A DNA stretch of 55,085 nucleotides, taken from positions 1 through 55,085 of IMG/VR virus record IMGVR_UViG_3300021185_000718. The stretch is one strand, 5' to 3'. Positions 12,332-40,360 of the stretch are shown in pieces (within the stretch, counting starts at the first letter, position 1; each line of letters begins with the position of its first letter). The notes beneath the pieces were generated by a model. The model was given only the letters and a program-made list of their open reading frames with translations. It was not told the DNA's origin and did not search any database. Both the position numbers and the translations under genes were made by a program. This stretch comes from a virus.

Positions 12332-13022
12332 CTATTTTAGGAAACAGAGCATCTGCACAAAACTCATCAACATCAGCTTCAGGTAATCCTAAAGACTTCA
12401 TTGTACGTGGCGTATGTGGGTTTTGTTGCTGGTTATGACAGTAATAGTTCTGTGCTCCAGCGGTAAGTTCAATATTAGCATTGCCTGTATACTGAGGAAC
12501 ACTTTCAAACCATGTTCTTAAGTTATCTACTGCTAGGTCGCATATTGCAGTAGCTTCTTCTACTGTGTTTACATTACCAGCGGCAATCATACTTGGACTA
12601 AAAATATTACGAGCCCATTCAGGTAGTTCACGTTTCTTACTTGGAATAAAGTCTGCAACTGCATCTTGATACCAATCAACTAACGGATGGTCTTCTCCAC
12701 CACTACTTGCACTAAAGTCATGGAAAGCACCTGTCATCTTGTTCTTACCTGCAATAACATCAAAGCCGTATATAGGAGCATCGTTAGTTAGTGTAGGAAA
12801 ACAACATACATGCATCATCCATAAGCCTTTGCTATCACGTACATCAACTACATCAATGTGAGCTCTGCGTACATGCGGATTAGCCCATACTTTATTAAGC
12901 CATCCATTCTCTGGTTGGTGAAATTTGTTTAGTGTTTTTTCTTCTTTCTCAACTGCAAACTCATCAAAAATACCAAGTATACGATCCTGTGTTTCAATTA
13001 GTTTATTCCATATTACGCTCAT
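12327..13022 (-). CDS. pcyX: Ferredoxin-dependent bilin reductase, PcyA/PcyX type
   Basis: Expected to reduce biliverdin IXalpha with electrons from ferredoxin. The 231-aa protein follows PcyA through its whole length: RRAHIDVVDV, MMHVCCFP, APIYGFDVIAG, ELPEWARNIFS and NYYCHNQQQNP. Compared with Synechocystis PcyA, His74, His88 and Asp105 correspond to His55, His71 and Asp88 here, while Glu76, which acts in reducing the exo-vinyl group, is replaced by Asp57. Oceanic-virus PcyX enzymes are known to make phycoerythrobilin; this protein is inferred to be one. The start overlaps the halogenase stop by 4 nt, and heme oxygenase is two genes upstream, giving heme -> biliverdin -> bilin. Confidence 0.9.
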   Translation of the reverse strand: MSVIWNKLIETQDRILGIFDEFAVEKEEKTLNKFHQPENGWLNKVWANPHVRRAHIDVVDVRDSKGLWMMHVCCFPTLTNDAPIYGFDVIAGKNKMTGAFHDFSASSGGEDHPLVDWYQDAVADFIPSKKRELPEWARNIFSPSMIAAGNVNTVEEATAICDLAVDNLRTWFESVPQYTGNANIELTAGAQNYYCHNQQQNPHTPRTMKSLGLPEADVDEFCADALFPKIV

Positions 13023-14512
13023 CTATTACTCCACTCTCTGTTAGATATACCTGGCATTGATTCCCTTAATTCAACTTCGTGCATACTTTTAATTATGTCA
13101 ATTGCGTTTTGTTTTTTAATTTTTGGTGTTGCTGGATTAATGCCTGTAGCATGTAGCCATAACTTCCAGTTAGTTTCTGCAAATATTTCCGTGTTACGTG
13201 GAAAGAACTGCGATTCGTCTAGTGTTGGGGTATACGTTCTTGCATACCCTGTTGCCAATTCTTCTAGCTTAGGTGTTTCTTTAAAGTTTTCGTAAACGTG
13301 TTTCCAAAACTTACCTTGTCTTGGATTATTAAAGTAGTGCAATGCTACAAAGTTCATGCTATCTTCGTATACTGTTTCAATGTCGTTATTATAACCATCT
13401 ACATCTTCTTGTGTAAAATGTCCTTTTTGTAAACATCTAAGTCCAGTAGCACCAATGATTAGTAATGCAAGTCCTGTACTTTCTAATGGCTCAATAAATC
13501 CACTAGCAAGTCCTACACTAAAACAATTACCTCTCCAATTCTTTCTATTATACTTAGGCTCAAACGGTATGTGGTTAAACTTACCTGTACGTAGTCTATG
13601 TTCTCCCCAATGTTGTACAAAGTGATCTTCTGCTTCTTGTTTAGTTGTTAGGTCACTGTTGTAACATAGCCCACTACCTATTCTATCTCTAACAGGAGTT
13701 TTCCATATCCAACCTAGGTCAGTTGCTTGTGCAGTAACATAAGGTACTTGTGGTTCGTCATCTGTTTCGTAATCAATTTGACTTGCAACCGCGGCATTAG
13801 TAAACAGCATATGACTTCTGTCAACCCAGTCTGCACCTGGTATTGCGTTTGATAATAGTTTCTTAAATCCTGTACAGTCAACAAAGAAGTCAGCAACAAG
13901 TTCTTGTCCATCTTCTAATATAACTTTTTCAACTTGACATTTATTAATTACAGGCTTACTAATATGTTTTTTAATGTGTGTTAGTTTAGTATACTTTTTG
14001 TTTAGATATTCTGATAAGAAGTTTGCAAGTTTGATAGCATCTAAATGATATCCTACATGAGCGTTGCCGCCTTTAACACTTGTGTTCTCTGGAACAACGT
14101 TGTTTGTAATACAAGTGTTGTACCATGACATGTACGTTTCCATATCAGTTTGTGTAGCACCAGCATCAAGAGCTAAGTTTACAATGTCGCCCATGTGTCC
14201 TTCGTCACTAGTACCTACTGGAAAATAAAACGGTTGCCAAATATTTGTATTGTCGCCTTTCCAATTAGGAAAGTATGTTCCGCATTTAATAGTTGCGTCT
14301 GATGCCTTGGTCCATAACTCCATTGGAATACCACAGTCTTTTAAGTAATGGTCAAAGCCTAGTATAGTTGCTTCACCTACTCCTACTGTCGGAATGTTAG
14401 GACTTTCTACAAGGGTAACGTTTACGTTGGGTAAGTTATATAAAGCATAAGCGGCTGTCATCCAACCTGCTGTGCCACCTCCAACAATACAAATACTTGA
14501 TACGTTAGTCAT
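13019..14512 (-). CDS. Flavin-dependent (tryptophan-type) halogenase
   Basis: Uses FADH2, oxygen and halide to halogenate an aromatic substrate. The 497-aa protein has GGGTAGW (11-17) for FAD, the VGVGEAT segment near 43-49, the catalytic lysine in ATIKCGTYFPNW (Lys76, equivalent to PrnA Lys79), and WIWKTP (268-273) in place of the WxWxIP signature. The C-terminal FVALHYFNNPRQGKFW is also typical. A related viral halogenase (VirX1, cyanophage) is known. Its place between heme oxygenase and bilin reductase, with 4- and 8-nt overlaps, raises the possibility of a tetrapyrrole or indole substrate; this is speculation. Confidence 0.92.
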   Translation of the reverse strand: MTNVSSICIVGGGTAGWMTAAYALYNLPNVNVTLVESPNIPTVGVGEATILGFDHYLKDCGIPMELWTKASDATIKCGTYFPNWKGDNTNIWQPFYFPVGTSDEGHMGDIVNLALDAGATQTDMETYMSWYNTCITNNVVPENTSVKGGNAHVGYHLDAIKLANFLSEYLNKKYTKLTHIKKHISKPVINKCQVEKVILEDGQELVADFFVDCTGFKKLLSNAIPGADWVDRSHMLFTNAAVASQIDYETDDEPQVPYVTAQATDLGWIWKTPVRDRIGSGLCYNSDLTTKQEAEDHFVQHWGEHRLRTGKFNHIPFEPKYNRKNWRGNCFSVGLASGFIEPLESTGLALLIIGATGLRCLQKGHFTQEDVDGYNNDIETVYEDSMNFVALHYFNNPRQGKFWKHVYENFKETPKLEELATGYARTYTPTLDESQFFPRNTEIFAETNWKLWLHATGINPATPKIKKQNAIDIIKSMHEVELRESMPGISNREWSNR

Positions 14513-18854: not shown

Positions 18855-18956
18855 AGTAATATTACTTATTCTTGTGGATTGTTTGCCAAACACTATTCTG
18901 GCTCTGTTCTGAATTTTGTTTATAGTTTGGTTCTATTACTTCAGTAAAGTCAGGTC

Positions 18957-20921
18957 TTATTCTTGAGTCTTGAGTCTGACTTGTTTGTTCTCTACTTTGG
19001 TTATGTACGAAGTTTTTTTTTGAGGTAGCTTTTGTCTAGTACCTTGTTCGCCTTCACCTAGTTGGGTAACTTCTAATTCAGCTTCTTTGTTAGCGGCCTC
19101 TACCCAGTCATTCCATTTATCTAGATCGTCCGTTTCAATCATCTCGTTATTAAGTTCTTCTTGACTAGGTTTTTTATTAAAGTCAAGCTCTAATTGATTT
19201 GGGTCAGCAACTACTTCAGGAGTTTCAATTTTTGTAGGTACTACAGGTTCTGGGTCAATGTCTGGGAACAATAATAATTGATCACTATGTTCACTCTTAG
19301 TTGGTTCTTCTTCTTTTTCAAAGTCTGGTGGAACATTGTCAGCAATAGCTTGGGCTCTTGCTTGTTCGTATTCCCTACGTTCTTCTTCTGCTAGTTCTTC
19401 TGGGCTAACATCTTCAAACTCAGGATCGTCTTGTGGATCGTCCTCGTCTGACTTTGGGCGGCCGCCTCCACCTGTACTACCACTGTTTACCCAATGGAAT
19501 GTATACTGTGAAGCAATAAGCATTAATACTGCTAATGGATCAAATACAAATATAATAATTATAATAACCCAACGTACTGCTTCTTCAAGCATATTGTTAT
19601 CGGCTGTTTCGCCATAAACAAATTCAGCAATGTATTTGATAGGTCCTACTTCTGCTTCTAACTGACGATACTCACCTTGTAGTTTATATTTTTCTTCAAT
19701 AATAGTATCTAGTTCTGTTTCAGCATTTTTAATCTTAGCTAGTTGTTCTTCAACTTGTGCATCAATATCATCTGCATTACTTGTGTCAGCTAATTGAGAA
19801 CGTAGTCTTTCAATTAGTTCTTGACTGTTCTTAACTGAATCTTCAGCACTTTGACGTAGTCTATTAATTTCATCTCTTGCTGTCTGTATAACAGGAGATT
19901 CTGTTTGACGTACTTCGTCAATCTTACCTAGCATTACAAGTTCACGTTCTTTGAGTGCAGGTATTTGTTTTTCTCTAATATCTTTAATTACGTTGCCTAA
20001 ACGGAAACGTTCCATGTCAACAGTTTTCTTAGCATCAGCACGTAGTTGAGATACATCATTTTGTATTTGTGTAATTCTATCACGTTGAGCTTTGACCCAT
20101 TTAGCAAGAGCTGAACGAGTGTTGCCACCAAATAGTCCATCACTACTTACACCAATGATAGCCTGGCCTGCTCTTACTTCGCTTTGTTCTGTTGATTGTA
20201 GTTGATTAGTAACACGAATAATCTCTGCTTCAATAGTATCAATACTATCTAATAATGGTTGTACTGCACTTGTATCTTGTTCTAGTGATGCAATCTTATC
20301 TTCGTACTCTCTTGCACTAGCTTCTAAACGAAGGACTTCTGCACTAATAGTTGCAAGTTGTTCTTCATAAGGTTTAGTACGTGCTGAGTCAGTTTCTCTA
20401 GCGTCTTCAATAATTTTGTTCTGTTGTTCAATAGCAGGTTTGATACGTTCAAATGCTTTGTCAATACGATCTTGTTCTTTATCAATCTGTGATTGTATGT
20501 TAGCGTCACTACCTGAACCACTAGTTTCTAATGCTTCAATTTTATCATCAGCTCTATCAATAACTGCATTAAGTCTTACAATCTCATTTTCAATTTGTTC
20601 TACTTTTGCAATGCTTTCTTCGCCTGCACTTGTTTGTTCGATGTGAGCTTTACTTAAGAAACCAAAAATACCCATACTTGTAATAAACATGAGTACTACG
20701 ACAGCTATACTTAAATAAGTTTTAAGCCACCATGTTGCTTGACTCCAATACCTGTGTAGCCATACTGCGGTAACAAGTTTACCAACTTCAAGTACACCAC
20801 CCATAATCATAATAGGTATAGCCGCCGCGGCAAAGATAGCCACTAGTCCTGCTATGGAGTAATATATTGCTACTGCTGATATAGATATAGCAGATAAAAA
20901 AGTTAGTATTCCTATTAACAT
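18957..20921 (-). CDS. Large membrane-anchored coiled-coil protein
   Basis: The 654-aa protein starts at ATG 20921 after AAAGGAAAC. Predicted: two or three N-terminal membrane helices (LIGILTFLSAISISAVAIYY, IMIMGGVLEVGKLVTAVW, VVVLMFITSMGIFGFL), about 330 residues of coiled coil, a GLFGGNTRSALAKWVKAQ segment resembling a peptidoglycan-binding domain 1 repeat within it, another membrane helix near residue 470, and a long acidic, disordered tail. It may span or anchor in the host envelope during infection. Function unknown. Confidence 0.75.
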   Translation of the reverse strand: MLIGILTFLSAISISAVAIYYSIAGLVAIFAAAAIPIMIMGGVLEVGKLVTAVWLHRYWSQATWWLKTYLSIAVVVLMFITSMGIFGFLSKAHIEQTSAGEESIAKVEQIENEIVRLNAVIDRADDKIEALETSGSGSDANIQSQIDKEQDRIDKAFERIKPAIEQQNKIIEDARETDSARTKPYEEQLATISAEVLRLEASAREYEDKIASLEQDTSAVQPLLDSIDTIEAEIIRVTNQLQSTEQSEVRAGQAIIGVSSDGLFGGNTRSALAKWVKAQRDRITQIQNDVSQLRADAKKTVDMERFRLGNVIKDIREKQIPALKERELVMLGKIDEVRQTESPVIQTARDEINRLRQSAEDSVKNSQELIERLRSQLADTSNADDIDAQVEEQLAKIKNAETELDTIIEEKYKLQGEYRQLEAEVGPIKYIAEFVYGETADNNMLEEAVRWVIIIIIFVFDPLAVLMLIASQYTFHWVNSGSTGGGGRPKSDEDDPQDDPEFEDVSPEELAEEERREYEQARAQAIADNVPPDFEKEEEPTKSEHSDQLLLFPDIDPEPVVPTKIETPEVVADPNQLELDFNKKPSQEELNNEMIETDDLDKWNDWVEAANKEAELEVTQLGEGEQGTRQKLPQKKTSYITKVENKQVRLKTQE

Positions 20922-20979
20922 ATGGTTTCCTTTTGTATACACTATTTACCTGCCTTTTTATTGTTAATTAAGTTACTAT

Positions 20980-35827: not shown

Positions 35828-35835
35828 TATTTATC
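35828..35835 (-). promoter_or_regulatory. Late promoter for the tail fibre gene
   Basis: GATAAATA on the minus strand, 26 nt before ATG 35802. Confidence 0.65.
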
Positions 35836-36514
35836 ACTTCATGGAGTCATAATATTGATATACACGGTCCCACCACTTAGATTCCCACTCCTTAAATTCG
35901 TCTGGCCATAGATCAAACTGCTGATACGTTAAGTCGCGACAGCATACAAATACATGCCCTTCTTTAATGTCTGTGCCGTATATTTCGTTATGTGCTAAGG
36001 CATAGGCTGTTAACTGCAAATAGTAATCTTCAATCCATTCTTTCTTCTTAGGCTTGTTAGATTGTTTAAAGTCCATAATACAAGGCTGGCCTTTGTATGT
36101 TCCTACAAGATCAGTCGTTCCTGCGTAGATTTGAGGGTGATAAAGCATCACTTCTGTACCCCATATAGCATCTACGTCAACCATAGCATTATCACGGATT
36201 TGTTCACCCATCTTGTTTGCTTGTTGACTGTAAGGGTTACTGCCTGGTTGTGGCCATTCGCCTTCTAGTATGTAATCCTCTAAGAACTTGTGCATACGTG
36301 TTCCAACACTAGCGGCTTCTGTTACAATCTCTTGTGCTTTCTTTTCTCCAACACGCTTACGCCATGCGTTTAAATGCGTCATATCCTTCGTTTTACTAAG
36401 GATTGTTGTAACACTTGCTACATGGTTACCATCTGGACAAGCGTACAAACGCTTGCCGTTTACGCTTTCTCTTTTTAGCTCTTTATAATCATACTGTTCG
36501 GTTATTAAACTCAT
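35834..36514 (-). CDS. RecB-like PD-(D/E)XK nuclease
   Basis: The 226-aa protein has GTRMHKFLEDYI (with upstream conserved His), YAGTTDLVGTYKGQPCIMDFKQSNKPKK (catalytic Asp in TDLVG, Asp and Lys in DFK) and YYLQLTAYALAHN (the QxxxY motif), the order of the Cas4/RecB exonuclease superfamily. Likely used in DNA recombination or host DNA breakdown. It overlaps the 2OG gene upstream by 4 nt. Confidence 0.87.
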   Translation of the reverse strand: MSLITEQYDYKELKRESVNGKRLYACPDGNHVASVTTILSKTKDMTHLNAWRKRVGEKKAQEIVTEAASVGTRMHKFLEDYILEGEWPQPGSNPYSQQANKMGEQIRDNAMVDVDAIWGTEVMLYHPQIYAGTTDLVGTYKGQPCIMDFKQSNKPKKKEWIEDYYLQLTAYALAHNEIYGTDIKEGHVFVCCRDLTYQQFDLWPDEFKEWESKWWDRVYQYYDSMK

Positions 36515-37053
36515 TTAATTTCTTCCTCTGGCTCTAGCCATTCTGTTACAAAATTGATAACCAATGCACTCCTTACGTTGTGGTAAGGGTACGTTCCATG
36601 ATTAACGTTGCCTGTCATTAGTACTGTTTTACCTGGTGTAGGTACTATCTCATTAATACTAAGGGTAAGATCTCTTTCTGCAATAATCGTGTATAACGAA
36701 CCCGAATTATCGTTTGGTAGATCTAATTCTAAATCTTGTGCATACATTACTAAACTAATTAGATTAGGTTTGCCTGTATGATTATGTACACTCTGATACT
36801 CGTGTGGTTTGTAGTTGTGCAACCAGCTTTCGTCTACTGTTACTTTCTTTACGGGTATGTTATGTTCATTCATTTTATCTCTAACCCAGTTTTCCATACC
36901 TACAAAACAGTTAGGATCAATAGTACTTTGTATTCGTCTAGGATAGTCTTTAACTTCTGTAACGTGATTGTTTGCTTGTTGATGTACAACAGACCATCCG
37001 TCATAGTGTGTTTCAATTACAGCTTGATTGTATCCTGTGTATACTTTATCCAT
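36511..37053 (-). CDS. 2OG-Fe(II) oxygenase-like protein
   Basis: The 180-aa protein has a VTVDESWLHNYKPHEYQSVHNHTGKPNLISLVMYAQ strand region with candidate ligands and a GKTVLMTGNVNHGTYPYHNVRSALVINF ending. It is related to the neighbour at 37213-37974 (similar QSVHNH/QAIHNH and WHGVYP/NHGTYP blocks). HxH appears in place of HxD, so activity is unproven. Confidence 0.75.
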   Translation of the reverse strand: MDKVYTGYNQAVIETHYDGWSVVHQQANNHVTEVKDYPRRIQSTIDPNCFVGMENWVRDKMNEHNIPVKKVTVDESWLHNYKPHEYQSVHNHTGKPNLISLVMYAQDLELDLPNDNSGSLYTIIAERDLTLSINEIVPTPGKTVLMTGNVNHGTYPYHNVRSALVINFVTEWLEPEEEIK

Positions 37054-37220
37054 TACTTAAATTTCCTGTCTATCCACTTCTTGCCTACATATAATAATGC
37101 TATAACAATTACAATACCACCAAGTACTGTTGCTTCTAATATAATATCACCTTGACTTGAATCTATTTCAATGCCGTCCTCGCTGATTGCAATACGACAT
37201 GTTTCACATGTTTCACTCAT
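37053..37220 (-). CDS. Small single-span membrane protein
   Basis: The 55-aa protein from ATG 37220 starts MSETCETCRIAISEDG and has one membrane helix (LEATVLGGIVIVIALLYVG) with a basic end. Start overlaps the stop of the 37213 gene (ATGAGTGA). The CxxC near the N-terminus could bind metal. Unknown function. Confidence 0.6.
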   Translation of the reverse strand: MSETCETCRIAISEDGIEIDSSQGDIILEATVLGGIVIVIALLYVGKKWIDRKFK

Positions 37221-37974
37221 TAGGATCAAACTCCTCGTCTGGTGCAAAGTAATCAAAGTCAAAGTCAACTACCCATGTACGCCTTGGTGCTTTACAAGGA
37301 TAAACTCCGTGCCACACTCTACCATCCATAATAACTGTTCTACCTGGATATGGTGCAAATTGATTGTATTCTTGTGTACCATCTGGATTAGGCATTAGTG
37401 TGTAAAGCATACCGTTGTCAGGTGACATAGTTTTATGGTCACTGTCGTTAACAGGAGTTTCATCCATAGCCATTACCATACTAATACATGCACTTCCGTG
37501 ATTGTGTATTGCTTGGTATCCGCCATCACTATAGTCAACACACCAAGTCTTACTTACTTTAATAGTTTTAACAGGAATGCCGTTGCGTCTAACAACTTTC
37601 ATTACCCATTCCATTAGTTGTTTCCAATCAATGTTATCAAACTTTTCTTTGTCTATAGGAGGAAAGTTTGACTGTACTGATGGTTCAAATCTTGTTTCTT
37701 TAAGAAGTTTACTGCTTGGAAAGCCTTGTTGTTCAGGTGTGTCAGGATTCATCTTATCTGACCTTACAACTTTGCCACCCCATGCAGGTAAGTTAGGAGG
37801 AGTAATATCATATTGGTAACCATTGAATGTTGTTTTAACTTTGCTTTGGTCTTCACCCCTAAACTTGTCATTTTCAAATAGCTGTAAAAACTGTTCATGG
37901 AAAGGACATCTAATATCTACTATCCATTGATTACTTGCACTCATTAATGTGCCTAGGTCCATACGTTGTGTCAT
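37213..37974 (-). CDS. 2OG-Fe(II) oxygenase-like protein
   Basis: The 253-aa protein has SKTWCVDYSDGGYQAIHNHGSACISMVMAMDET, a middle insert, and GRTVIMDGRVWHGVYPCKAPRRTWVVDFDFDYF with the distal His and the Arg. It is the longer relative of the gene at 36511. Overlaps the next 2OG gene by 4 nt. Substrate unknown. Confidence 0.77.
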   Translation of the reverse strand: MTQRMDLGTLMSASNQWIVDIRCPFHEQFLQLFENDKFRGEDQSKVKTTFNGYQYDITPPNLPAWGGKVVRSDKMNPDTPEQQGFPSSKLLKETRFEPSVQSNFPPIDKEKFDNIDWKQLMEWVMKVVRRNGIPVKTIKVSKTWCVDYSDGGYQAIHNHGSACISMVMAMDETPVNDSDHKTMSPDNGMLYTLMPNPDGTQEYNQFAPYPGRTVIMDGRVWHGVYPCKAPRRTWVVDFDFDYFAPDEEFDPNE

Positions 37975-38564
37975 AGTGGTATATCGTTCCTATCTCTGCC
38001 GTTGGTATTAATAGTAAATGTAATTCTATCTTCATCGCTGTTACTTGCTTGAGTCTTGTGTGTTAGCCAACCCGGAAATATTACAACGTCATTAGTTTGT
38101 ACACTTACTTCTTTCCAGTAATCGTGTATTGTGTTAGTAGGAATACGTGAATAACCTGACCAGTTAGTTCTTAGTAACTGTTCAAACTCTATGTTACCAC
38201 TTTGTGGTGGAACTTGTACGTATGCAGACACTACTACGTTTGCACTACCATGATCATGTGGTAATGTATGTGCATCTCGTTTGTGTAAATTAGTCCAACT
38301 ACCTGTAGCAATAATATCTGTGTACTGTATATCCCATTCAGCTAGAGCTATTTCAATCTTTGGACGTAACCAAATCATAAAATCTCTATTACATTCCCAT
38401 TCGTGAGGAGGGTTAGCATGACCTGCCGTACTCTTGCCACCATCAGCTTCTGTTTGATGTAACTGTGCTTCTGTGGATTGGTAGTCTTTAAATGCTTGTA
38501 CATCAAAGCCTGGACTATAATTATATTTCCAAACTAGATTAGGTACAATAGATACTTCATTCAT
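37971..38564 (-). CDS. 2OG-Fe(II) oxygenase (2OG-FeII_Oxy_5-like)
   Basis: The 197-aa protein has ATGSWTNLHKRDAHTLPHDHGSANVVVSAYVQVP and VIFPGWLTHKTQASNSDEDRITFTINTN, the family order seen in the gene at 17635. HDH is where HxD is expected. First gene of the three-oxygenase operon, after the promoter 38587-38615. Confidence 0.8.
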   Translation of the reverse strand: MNEVSIVPNLVWKYNYSPGFDVQAFKDYQSTEAQLHQTEADGGKSTAGHANPPHEWECNRDFMIWLRPKIEIALAEWDIQYTDIIATGSWTNLHKRDAHTLPHDHGSANVVVSAYVQVPPQSGNIEFEQLLRTNWSGYSRIPTNTIHDYWKEVSVQTNDVVIFPGWLTHKTQASNSDEDRITFTINTNGRDRNDIPL

Positions 38565-38624: not shown

Positions 38625-38906
38625 TTATGCAGTTGCTTTTGATGTTGCACGTTGAGCCATTTTATCTACTTCGCCGTCAGTCTTTTGACCTTTTGGTGCA
38701 TCGCTAGGTGCTTCTTTCTTTGTGTAAAGAGTAATACCTTTTGAATCAAAGTTTTTAACTAATGGTTGTATCTCTGGATTCTCATCATAAATTCTTTTGA
38801 AGCCATCGTAATCAAACTGTGGCTTTTTTAAGTTCTTCATGATAGTGTTCATTGCATCAAATGAAAGATAGGCAGGCTGATTTTGAGTATCGGCACTACC
38901 TATCAC
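38625..38906 (-). CDS. Frameshift-expressed C-terminal extension of the 38960-39901 gene
   Basis: The frame codes for about 93 aa from a weak GTG (38906) with no ribosome site, containing ADTQNQPAYLSFDAMNTIMKN and KKPQFDYDGFKRIYDENPE. The same frame is open further upstream, through VAEASDSDTKSSLINVFRN, exactly to the A AAA AAG heptamer at 38963-38969 at the end of the previous gene. It is most simply read as the downstream part of a -1 frameshift product. Probably virion-related; not otherwise recognised. Confidence 0.7.
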   Translation of the reverse strand: MIGSADTQNQPAYLSFDAMNTIMKNLKKPQFDYDGFKRIYDENPEIQPLVKNFDSKGITLYTKKEAPSDAPKGQKTDGEVDKMAQRATSKATA

Positions 38907-38959
38907 ATTTCTAAATACGTTTATTAAGGAAGACTTGGTGTCTGAATCGGAAGCCTCAG

Positions 38960-39901
38960 CTACTTTTTTGCTTGAGGTACTACCTTTTTTTTTGAATCAG
39001 TTAATAACTGAGCTAGTCTGCGTGAGCGTAAAACACTTTCTCGTTTACCTCTGTCCGCAATTTCTTCTCCGCCTGTTGCAGGTTCACTTGCTCCAAATTC
39101 ATCATCTACTGGTGCTTCAGCATCGGCGTCTTGGTCAACTGTTGGTTCCATAGCTGGGTCCTCTGCAGGAGCCTCAACGTCTGTTCCCATAGTCTCTGGA
39201 GCGCCTTCGCCTGTTACGATAGCTACGCCACCTGTTAATGCTTCTCTGGTTGTTTCAAATACTGTGTAAAGATTTTCTAGTGCTGGTTTTACAGTTCCAA
39301 TAAATGTTTCAGATGCTTCTGAACCCATCTCATCTCTAATTTTGTCGCCTAGTTCTAGCATACTTTCTGTTTGCATTTCTGCTGTGTCTTCCATCCAACC
39401 TGTAACACGGTCTACCATGTCTTTGGCCGCCATAACTAAAGTGGCCGCTTCTTCTGCGCCTTCATTAGTTTTCTTTTTGCCTGCAATAGCTTTTTGCAAA
39501 CCTGCTGGAAGTTTCTTTTGTTTTGCTGATAAGCCTTTTGAGTCTGAATCTTTTGAATCGCCTTTTTCTTTTGCGGCTTTCTTCATTGGCTCTTTCTTGT
39601 CGCCGTCTTTGTCTAAATCTAAAAAGTCTGGTTTCGCTTCGTTAGCAGTTTCTCTTTCAAGCATCTCTTGATTGATAACGTCTAGGAACATTTTAGCTTT
39701 CTGATATGTATCACTTGAATGTACGCTTTCAAACTGTTCGCTTGTTTCAACTTGGCTTAGCTGTGTACGTAATTTATTACGTGCATCTTCTAGTTGCTCC
39801 ACAGTAAATTTATCAAGAGCAATTCTTGTTCCAAAAGTTTTAGCTAGGCTTTCATTTAAAGCATTAGCTGTTAAAGGTTTTTTCAAATCGTTAAGTTTCA
39901 T
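38960..39901 (-). CDS. Probable virion-associated protein, zero-frame product
   Basis: The 313-aa protein has the N-terminus MKLNDLKKPLTANALNESLAKTFG, a helical section, a Lys-rich linker, then a long helix (AATLVMAAKDMVDRVTGWMEDTAEMQTESMLELGDKI) and an acidic Ala/Glu/Asp tail ending KKKVVPQAKK-stop. The final codons are GCA AAA AAG TAG, containing the slippery heptamer. A run of nine A lies 18 nt earlier. Late promoter at 39926-39933. A scaffold or head-internal role is suggested by composition and neighbours only. Confidence 0.75.
   Translation of the reverse strand: MKLNDLKKPLTANALNESLAKTFGTRIALDKFTVEQLEDARNKLRTQLSQVETSEQFESVHSSDTYQKAKMFLDVINQEMLERETANEAKPDFLDLDKDGDKKEPMKKAAKEKGDSKDSDSKGLSAKQKKLPAGLQKAIAGKKKTNEGAEEAATLVMAAKDMVDRVTGWMEDTAEMQTESMLELGDKIRDEMGSEASETFIGTVKPALENLYTVFETTREALTGGVAIVTGEGAPETMGTDVEAPAEDPAMEPTVDQDADAEAPVDDEFGASEPATGGEEIADRGKRESVLRSRRLAQLLTDSKKKVVPQAKK
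38963..38969 (-). promoter_or_regulatory. Candidate -1 ribosomal frameshift site (A AAA AAG)
   Basis: The minus strand reads GC A AAA AAG TAG, with the zero-frame stop directly after the heptamer. Slippage by -1 joins GTA GCT GAG and runs without a stop to 38625. An AAGG sequence about 13 nt upstream could act as the stimulatory internal Shine-Dalgarno known from dnaX. A second slippery A-run at 38985-38993 enters the same frame. Confidence 0.7.
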
Positions 39902-39925: not shown

Positions 39926-39933
39926 TATTTATC
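39926..39933 (-). promoter_or_regulatory. Late promoter for the frameshift gene
   Basis: GATAAATA on the minus strand, 25 nt before ATG 39901. Confidence 0.65.
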
Positions 39934-40360
39934 ATTCTTCGTTAAAGATGAACCTGTCGATTTGGTCCATATATTGAAAAGTACGGTCTTTTGCTATCTC
40001 AAACCTAGTTTCTAACGCCATTTTACGCATTTCGTCGTTCGTTTGTTCAATGCTATGCTTATGGAACAAGCTATCCATGTAATGTTTGCTTAATCCTGCA
40101 TCTAAATCTAGTATTTCACTACACTTTGCATCATATCCTTTAGCACGAGCTTTTGCATAAGCAATGGCTCCACGCTTACTAAATGTTTCTGCTATTCTTG
40201 TATGTGTCTTTACGTCAAACACTAAAAATCCTTGTTTCGTCTGTCTAATCACGGTGTTCTTTATACGAACACTCTTACCCTTTGCATATGGAACATGTAC
40301 CCTATTAAGGCCTTCTTCCATAATACTATCTAAATCTTCAATTATACGTTTCGAGTTCAT
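39932..40360 (-). CDS. Hypothetical protein, internal-protein cluster
   Basis: The 142-aa protein has a basic central part (AYAKGKSVRIKNTVIRQTKQGFLVFD, SKRGAIAYAKARAKGY) and a helical C-terminus. N-terminus MNSKRIIEDLDSIMEE. It overlaps the upstream gene by 23 nt. Not recognised. Confidence 0.6.
   Translation of the reverse strand: MNSKRIIEDLDSIMEEGLNRVHVPYAKGKSVRIKNTVIRQTKQGFLVFDVKTHTRIAETFSKRGAIAYAKARAKGYDAKCSEILDLDAGLSKHYMDSLFHKHSIEQTNDEMRKMALETRFEIAKDRTFQYMDQIDRFIFNEE

Follow-up and report, generated by a model that had tools for sequence, protein, structure and literature searches.

The locus described here raises the question of how a conserved reading frame that runs past the stop of a probable virion protein gene, and that has no evident start of its own, comes to be translated. 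The 55,085-nt stretch of DNA analysed (hereafter, the window) is a viral fragment, positions 1 to 55,085 of IMG/VR record IMGVR_UViG_3300021185_000718. On its minus strand, the 3' end of ORF A reads GCA AAA AAG TAG, and the -1 frame is stop-free from 38996 down to the stop at 38625-38627 (123 codons). An earlier note, made from the letters alone, had proposed that a programmed -1 frameshift at the in-register A AAA AAG adjoining the ORF A stop joins the two frames. The features on which it relied are borne out: the heptamer is next to the stop, the -1 frame is open to 38625, and a nearby run of nine A residues (A9), read TCA AAA AAA AAG in the zero frame and thus itself containing an in-register A_AAA_AAG, leads to the same frame. 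The downstream frame likewise has no good start or ribosome site, as the first possible start, the GTG at 38906, falls within the first predicted helix of the encoded domain (B) and is not preceded by a Shine-Dalgarno (SD)-like site. The AAGG that had been likened to the dnaX stimulator does lie about 13 nt upstream, but it is the tail end of A9GG and is not conserved, and we reject it in that role.

Features of the window bearing on the expression of A and B and on the second A9 site
Feature	Positions	Strand	Description
ORF A	38960-39901	minus	Made in the zero frame; 313 aa, acidic and largely helical; probably a structural protein of the virion
A9 run, followed by G at 38984	38985-38993	minus	Candidate principal -1 slip site
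Second in-register A_AAA_AAG, adjoining the stop	38963-38969	minus	Candidate auxiliary or redundant slip site
Domain B, -1 frame	Coding 38628-38987, stop 38625-38627	minus	About 120 aa, winged-helix-like; without start or SD
Possible stem-loop, 6 nt 3' of A9G	38954-38977	minus	CCUCA-A-GC / GCUGAGG, loop AAAAAAGUA; suggestive only
Upstream neighbour	39932-40360	minus	142 aa, conserved; in L150 a similar protein of 140 aa immediately precedes A (by inspection)
Exonuclease, syntenic downstream marker	35834-36514	minus	phrog_298
Second A9, candidate -1 recoding site	18862-19021	minus	CAA AAA AAA ACT; alternative tail ends RPDFTEVIEPNYKQNSEQSQNSVWQTIHKNK

Long homopolymers are in principle prone to error, and the break between the frames could be an artefact of sequencing or assembly, or the mark of a gene in decay. 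However, ORF A and the junction are identical in five IMG/VR contigs (L001-L005) from different samples, and this agreement of independent contigs excludes an assembly error. Moreover, the junction is conserved in 178 diverse loci, and B is under purifying selection (median dN/dS 0.18 over 670 pairs), leaving error or decay a negligible likelihood.

These loci come from a survey for relatives of ORF A that comprised five scans over viral contigs and a sixth over genome contigs. It left 205 distinct A-B junctions from IMG/VR, among which the row L229 is a B hit that was wrongly assigned. In 178 of the 205, B lies in the -1 frame and is associated with a heptamer, A_AAA_AAG in 148 and A_AAA_AAA in 30, which is in register in every one of them. 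A run of 8-10 A residues is present in 174 of these frameshift junctions and is A9 in most; the main form is A9G in phase 2, and the minor ones are A9G in another phase, A9C, A10T and A8G. The other four (L287, L296, L297, L305) have only an A6G heptamer, in the context GGA AAA AAG TCG TAA. The open -1 frame seen in the window is thus a conserved arrangement. At 26 junctions the slippery run is absent, and B instead has its own ATG, 1-13 nt past the A stop and in any of the three frames; just one of these 26 has a heptamer within the last 45 nt of A. Two further apparent ATG cases (L217, L219) were discounted, as the ATG lies inside A.

The same survey bears on whether B might be a separate product, translated from a non-AUG codon beyond the A stop through reinitiation or coupling. 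Such a reading draws on the presence of B as its own gene right behind A in the isolated jumbo phages RaK2 (Klebsiella) and PA5oct (Pseudomonas) and in the 26 marine relatives with an own ATG. Nevertheless, the first ATG, GTG or TTG of the B frame at the 178 frameshift loci usually falls within conserved B sequence, and an SD-like site precedes the first possible start at only four of them, as against 21 of the 26 separate-gene junctions. The slippery run occurs exactly where the start is absent: every relative without an own B start has a run of 8-10 A, except for the four loci with A_AAA_AAG only. We therefore regard separate initiation of B as highly improbable here. The earlier note had held that homologs with an independent, own-start B would speak against a frameshift; such homologs do exist, but they are distant and all lack the slippery run, a distribution that backs rather than refutes a frameshift in this genome. 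Finally, none of the 205 junctions is an in-frame A-B fusion, even though a one-base indel in the homopolymer would create one, which suggests, on the pattern of junctions, that A alone and A-B are both needed.

The relatives also indicate where the slip takes place. A9 is kept in every member of the window clade. In contrast, the stop-adjacent heptamer singled out by the earlier note is a separate second site in just 9 of the 175 A-run junctions, and the sister loci L009, L020, L025 and L028 have none. Its position nonetheless corresponds to that of the stop-adjacent A9G of other lineages, marking it as a genuine, though secondary, site, at which slippage in the window lineage is possible. 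Judged by conservation across the junctions, the slip site of the family is the A9G. Accordingly, the peptide expected across the joint is SKKKGSTSSKKVAEASD, and not only the QAKKVAEASD originally suggested. Of the initial proposal, then, programmed recoding that joins the two frames stands, on the strength of conservation, purifying selection and the exchange of run for start, while the location of the slip has to be moved.

Taken together, programmed -1 recoding at A9G, giving both A and an A-B fusion, is a likely and the best explanation of the locus. Under this scheme, A would be translated normally to its stop at 38960, yielding the 313-aa protein. On A9G, a fraction of decoding events would slip back by one base, most likely as two lysyl-tRNAs slip in tandem on A_AAA_AAG, and translation would then go on in the -1 frame to give a fused A-B product of about 425 aa. 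The short and the long form would thereby be produced at a fixed ratio, such that a minority of A subunits would bear the winged-helix-like B domain in the virion. We infer the existence of the fusion protein, its ratio to A and its role in the virion on these grounds.

The evolutionary history of the junction points to repeated exchange between the two modes of expression. A tree of 77 A proteins, from which the C-terminal columns were left out, calls for about four changes of state, from slippery run to own start or the reverse, three of which are forced by well-supported branches; L084, with its own ATG, neighbours L085, with A9. An independent-pairs test gave three concordant pairs, no discordant pair and one without difference (p 0.25), the switches being too few for significance.

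Whether the ribosome or the RNA polymerase slips on the run is a distinct question. In programmed transcriptional slippage, the polymerase would add one A (or drop two) within A9, so that part of the mRNA would encode A-B. Several features of the family are in line with this: the length of the A9 is kept across distant relatives, beyond what the heptamer needs; runs of at least nine A/T are depleted elsewhere in related genomes (357 kb contain 3 where 16.7 are expected, and 117 kb contain 2 where 14.7 are expected); and another gene of the same genome has a second conserved A9, whose register differs and whose next base is C or G. A conserved run of nine A residues was regarded by Baranov et al. 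(PMC1088944) as a strong sign of purposeful transcriptional slippage. On the other side, A8 loci occur, and in the four A6G loci the ribosomal heptamer is all that is retained, while B still has no start provided with a ribosome site; A6G is too short for usual transcriptional slippage. A hairpin in the nascent RNA that aids polymerase slippage is expected upstream of the run, but the stimulatory-looking structure in this family lies downstream of it.

As a candidate stimulator of -1 frameshifting, that structure is convincing in the A6G lineage and modest in the window clade. In the A6G lineage, a predicted structure begins about 6 nt downstream (-15.2 kcal/mol over 55 nt and -18.7 over 70 nt), and a 76-nt block, from -12 to +64, is 98-100% identical while its flanks are mostly 75-90% identical. 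In the window, the stem-loop has a predicted energy of -7.8 kcal/mol (z -0.9); it is stronger in the sister loci L018 (z -3.6) and L028 (z -2.4). The 5' arm of the stem changes within the window clade in a manner that keeps complementarity, a modest covariation judged by eye, and RNAalifold found no shared stem in this clade. Structures also vary from clade to clade. Across the frameshift class, the 60 nt downstream of the slip site fold more stably, with a mean z of -1.43, against -0.27 upstream and -0.09 further downstream, but the separate-gene class has the same excess at this place (mean z -1.41), and this signal is hence not specific to frameshift loci. With the near-invariant block and its stem-loop 6 nt downstream in the A6G lineage as the deciding evidence, we lean toward the ribosome as the slipping machine and treat slippage by the polymerase as a serious but less probable alternative. 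As an observation in its own right, the 76-nt block over the slip sites of L287, L296, L297 and L305 has the makings of a compact natural frameshift cassette.

The second A9 of the genome, at 19013-19021, lies near the 3' end of the minus-strand ORF 18957-20942; besides it and the A9 of ORF A, the window has no run of nine. Both this run and the C-terminal tail in its -1 frame are conserved in L391-L393 (about 38% identity to the window protein), G001, L437 and L440, the last of which encodes a protein 47% identical to that of G001. On inspection, a similar tail is found in frame in the 357-kb contig G012 (L410), which offers independent support that the tail is real protein. On this comparative evidence, the run is another conserved -1 recoding site. 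With regard to the wider set of contigs, runs of at least nine A/T in G001, G002, G012 and G013 (L394-L431) are 2- to 7-fold below the first-order Markov expectation.

As for the proteins themselves, ORF A matches PHROG 14154, "virion structural protein" (E 4.9e-10). When the PA5oct and Phosso records were searched with a profile of A, it recovered PA5oct gp247 (E 1.8e-12), whose annotation reads virion structural protein and carries the note ESI-MS/MS; Sinorhizobium phage Phosso was matched as well. A tblastn search of phage records with A and B recovered no convincing isolate relative, giving just a weak match to Phosso and two tape-measure matches, and no PDB relative of A was found by sequence. 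The model of A is helical, with a low-confidence overall arrangement. That of B has an AF2 core with pLDDT of about 87, and its elements (H14-35, E39-42, H43-52, H60-69, E77-80, E84-87) were compared with the order H-E-H-H-E-E sought for a winged helix; its best match to solved structures has a Z of 6.3, which is below the safe level of the tool. On the basis of the model, B likely adopts a winged-helix fold.

In RaK2 and PA5oct, A is followed by a small protein (with one more in PA5oct), an exonuclease, other small genes and nrdA, and the window shares this order, but with 2OG oxygenases intervening. The small proteins gp399 of RaK2 and gp246 of PA5oct are annotated as structural, have own starts, a size like that of B and similar ends; the B profile matches gp246 and the RaK2/SCTP-2 proteins weakly, and these are called B by position. 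By analogy, this synteny would place A and B as adjacent virion proteins, which are made separately in those phages. The A-B pair is present on contigs of up to 357 kb, and the T4-like terminase of the 335-kb contig G011:C57 is 54% identical to that of PA5oct, suggesting that the carriers are probably RaK2/PA5oct-like jumbo phages. Searches of viral fragments with PF07068 (gp23) and PF03237 (terminase) were empty or uninformative, except for the terminase on G011:C57. The gene family is also found on contigs in metagenome-assembled genomes assigned to Neomarinimicrobiota and Rickettsiales (L150, PBPT01000016.1, 335 kb; L149, PALK01000009.1); as they carry a phage gene family, these are probably phage contigs sitting in bacterial bins. 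Regarding the gene content of the window, three consecutive 2OG-Fe(II) oxygenase-like genes on the minus strand (36511-38564) span the interval from B to the exonuclease and are absent at this position in RaK2 and PA5oct. A tryptophan-halogenase-like gene (phrog_2928, E 6.5e-102) lies at 13019-14512 on the same strand of this marine phage.

Events of this kind are already known in phage structural genes (PMC5009743). On the other hand, the A-B family, the recurrent switches within it and the further site elsewhere in the genome are apparently undescribed, according to searches of open-access papers. We tentatively raise the wider idea, which we hold to be possible rather than probable, that in a marine jumbo phage clade the conserved A9 might be used deliberately for recoding in at least two genes, acting through slippage of the polymerase or of both polymerase and ribosome, and that lineages have switched to or from it several times. 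If true, the device would set fixed short:long ratios of virion and membrane proteins. More generally, the present results add a large candidate recoding family for uncultured phages and correct gene models that miss or separate B. The repeated exchange of run and own start amounts to an unusually clean evolutionary experiment on whether the covalent fusion or only the protein ratio is selected, and the existence of the A6G lineage makes ribosomal and transcriptional slippage on A9 distinguishable by test within one gene family.

Among known systems, RaK2 (gp400, gp399) and PA5oct (gp247, gp246) share the gene order, and in PA5oct also an A homologous by profile, but differ in that B is separate with its own start; the homology of B is mainly positional and weak by sequence. 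An operational analogy may be drawn with gpG/gpGT of phage lambda, where -1 slippage close to the stop adds a C-terminal domain to a minority of a morphogenesis protein (PMC5009743), as proposed for A. However, no homology was found, and the position differs: lambda G/GT lies between the major tail and tape-measure genes, whereas A has small virion genes on one side and an exonuclease/RNR block on the other. Its neighbours, small genes without known function, 2OG oxygenases, an exonuclease and RNR, are unlike those of the lambda-type position. Furthermore, lambda G and GT are absent from the mature virion, while the homolog of A is annotated as found in it. The T3 coat, the Lactobacillus phage A2 head and the Listeria A118 and A500 proteins are also extended C-terminally by -1 frameshifting (PMC5009743), and they present the same principle of one structural gene with two products, the longer with an extra C-terminal domain. 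There, the added domain is Ig-like rather than winged-helix-like as in B, and B is a separate gene in relatives rather than being absent. Escherichia coli dnaX and IS elements use A_AAA_AAG in the same register, with a downstream stem-loop as in the A6G lineage (PMC4066793), but the A-B loci have no conserved SD-like stimulator, and their heptamer is usually embedded in A9. In this last respect, they resemble Thermus thermophilus dnaX and Deinococcus IS elements, where transcriptional slippage on a conserved A9 tract likewise yields two proteins from one gene (PMC1088944); those, however, are cellular or IS genes, and in the phage family the A6G lineage argues for slippage by the ribosome.
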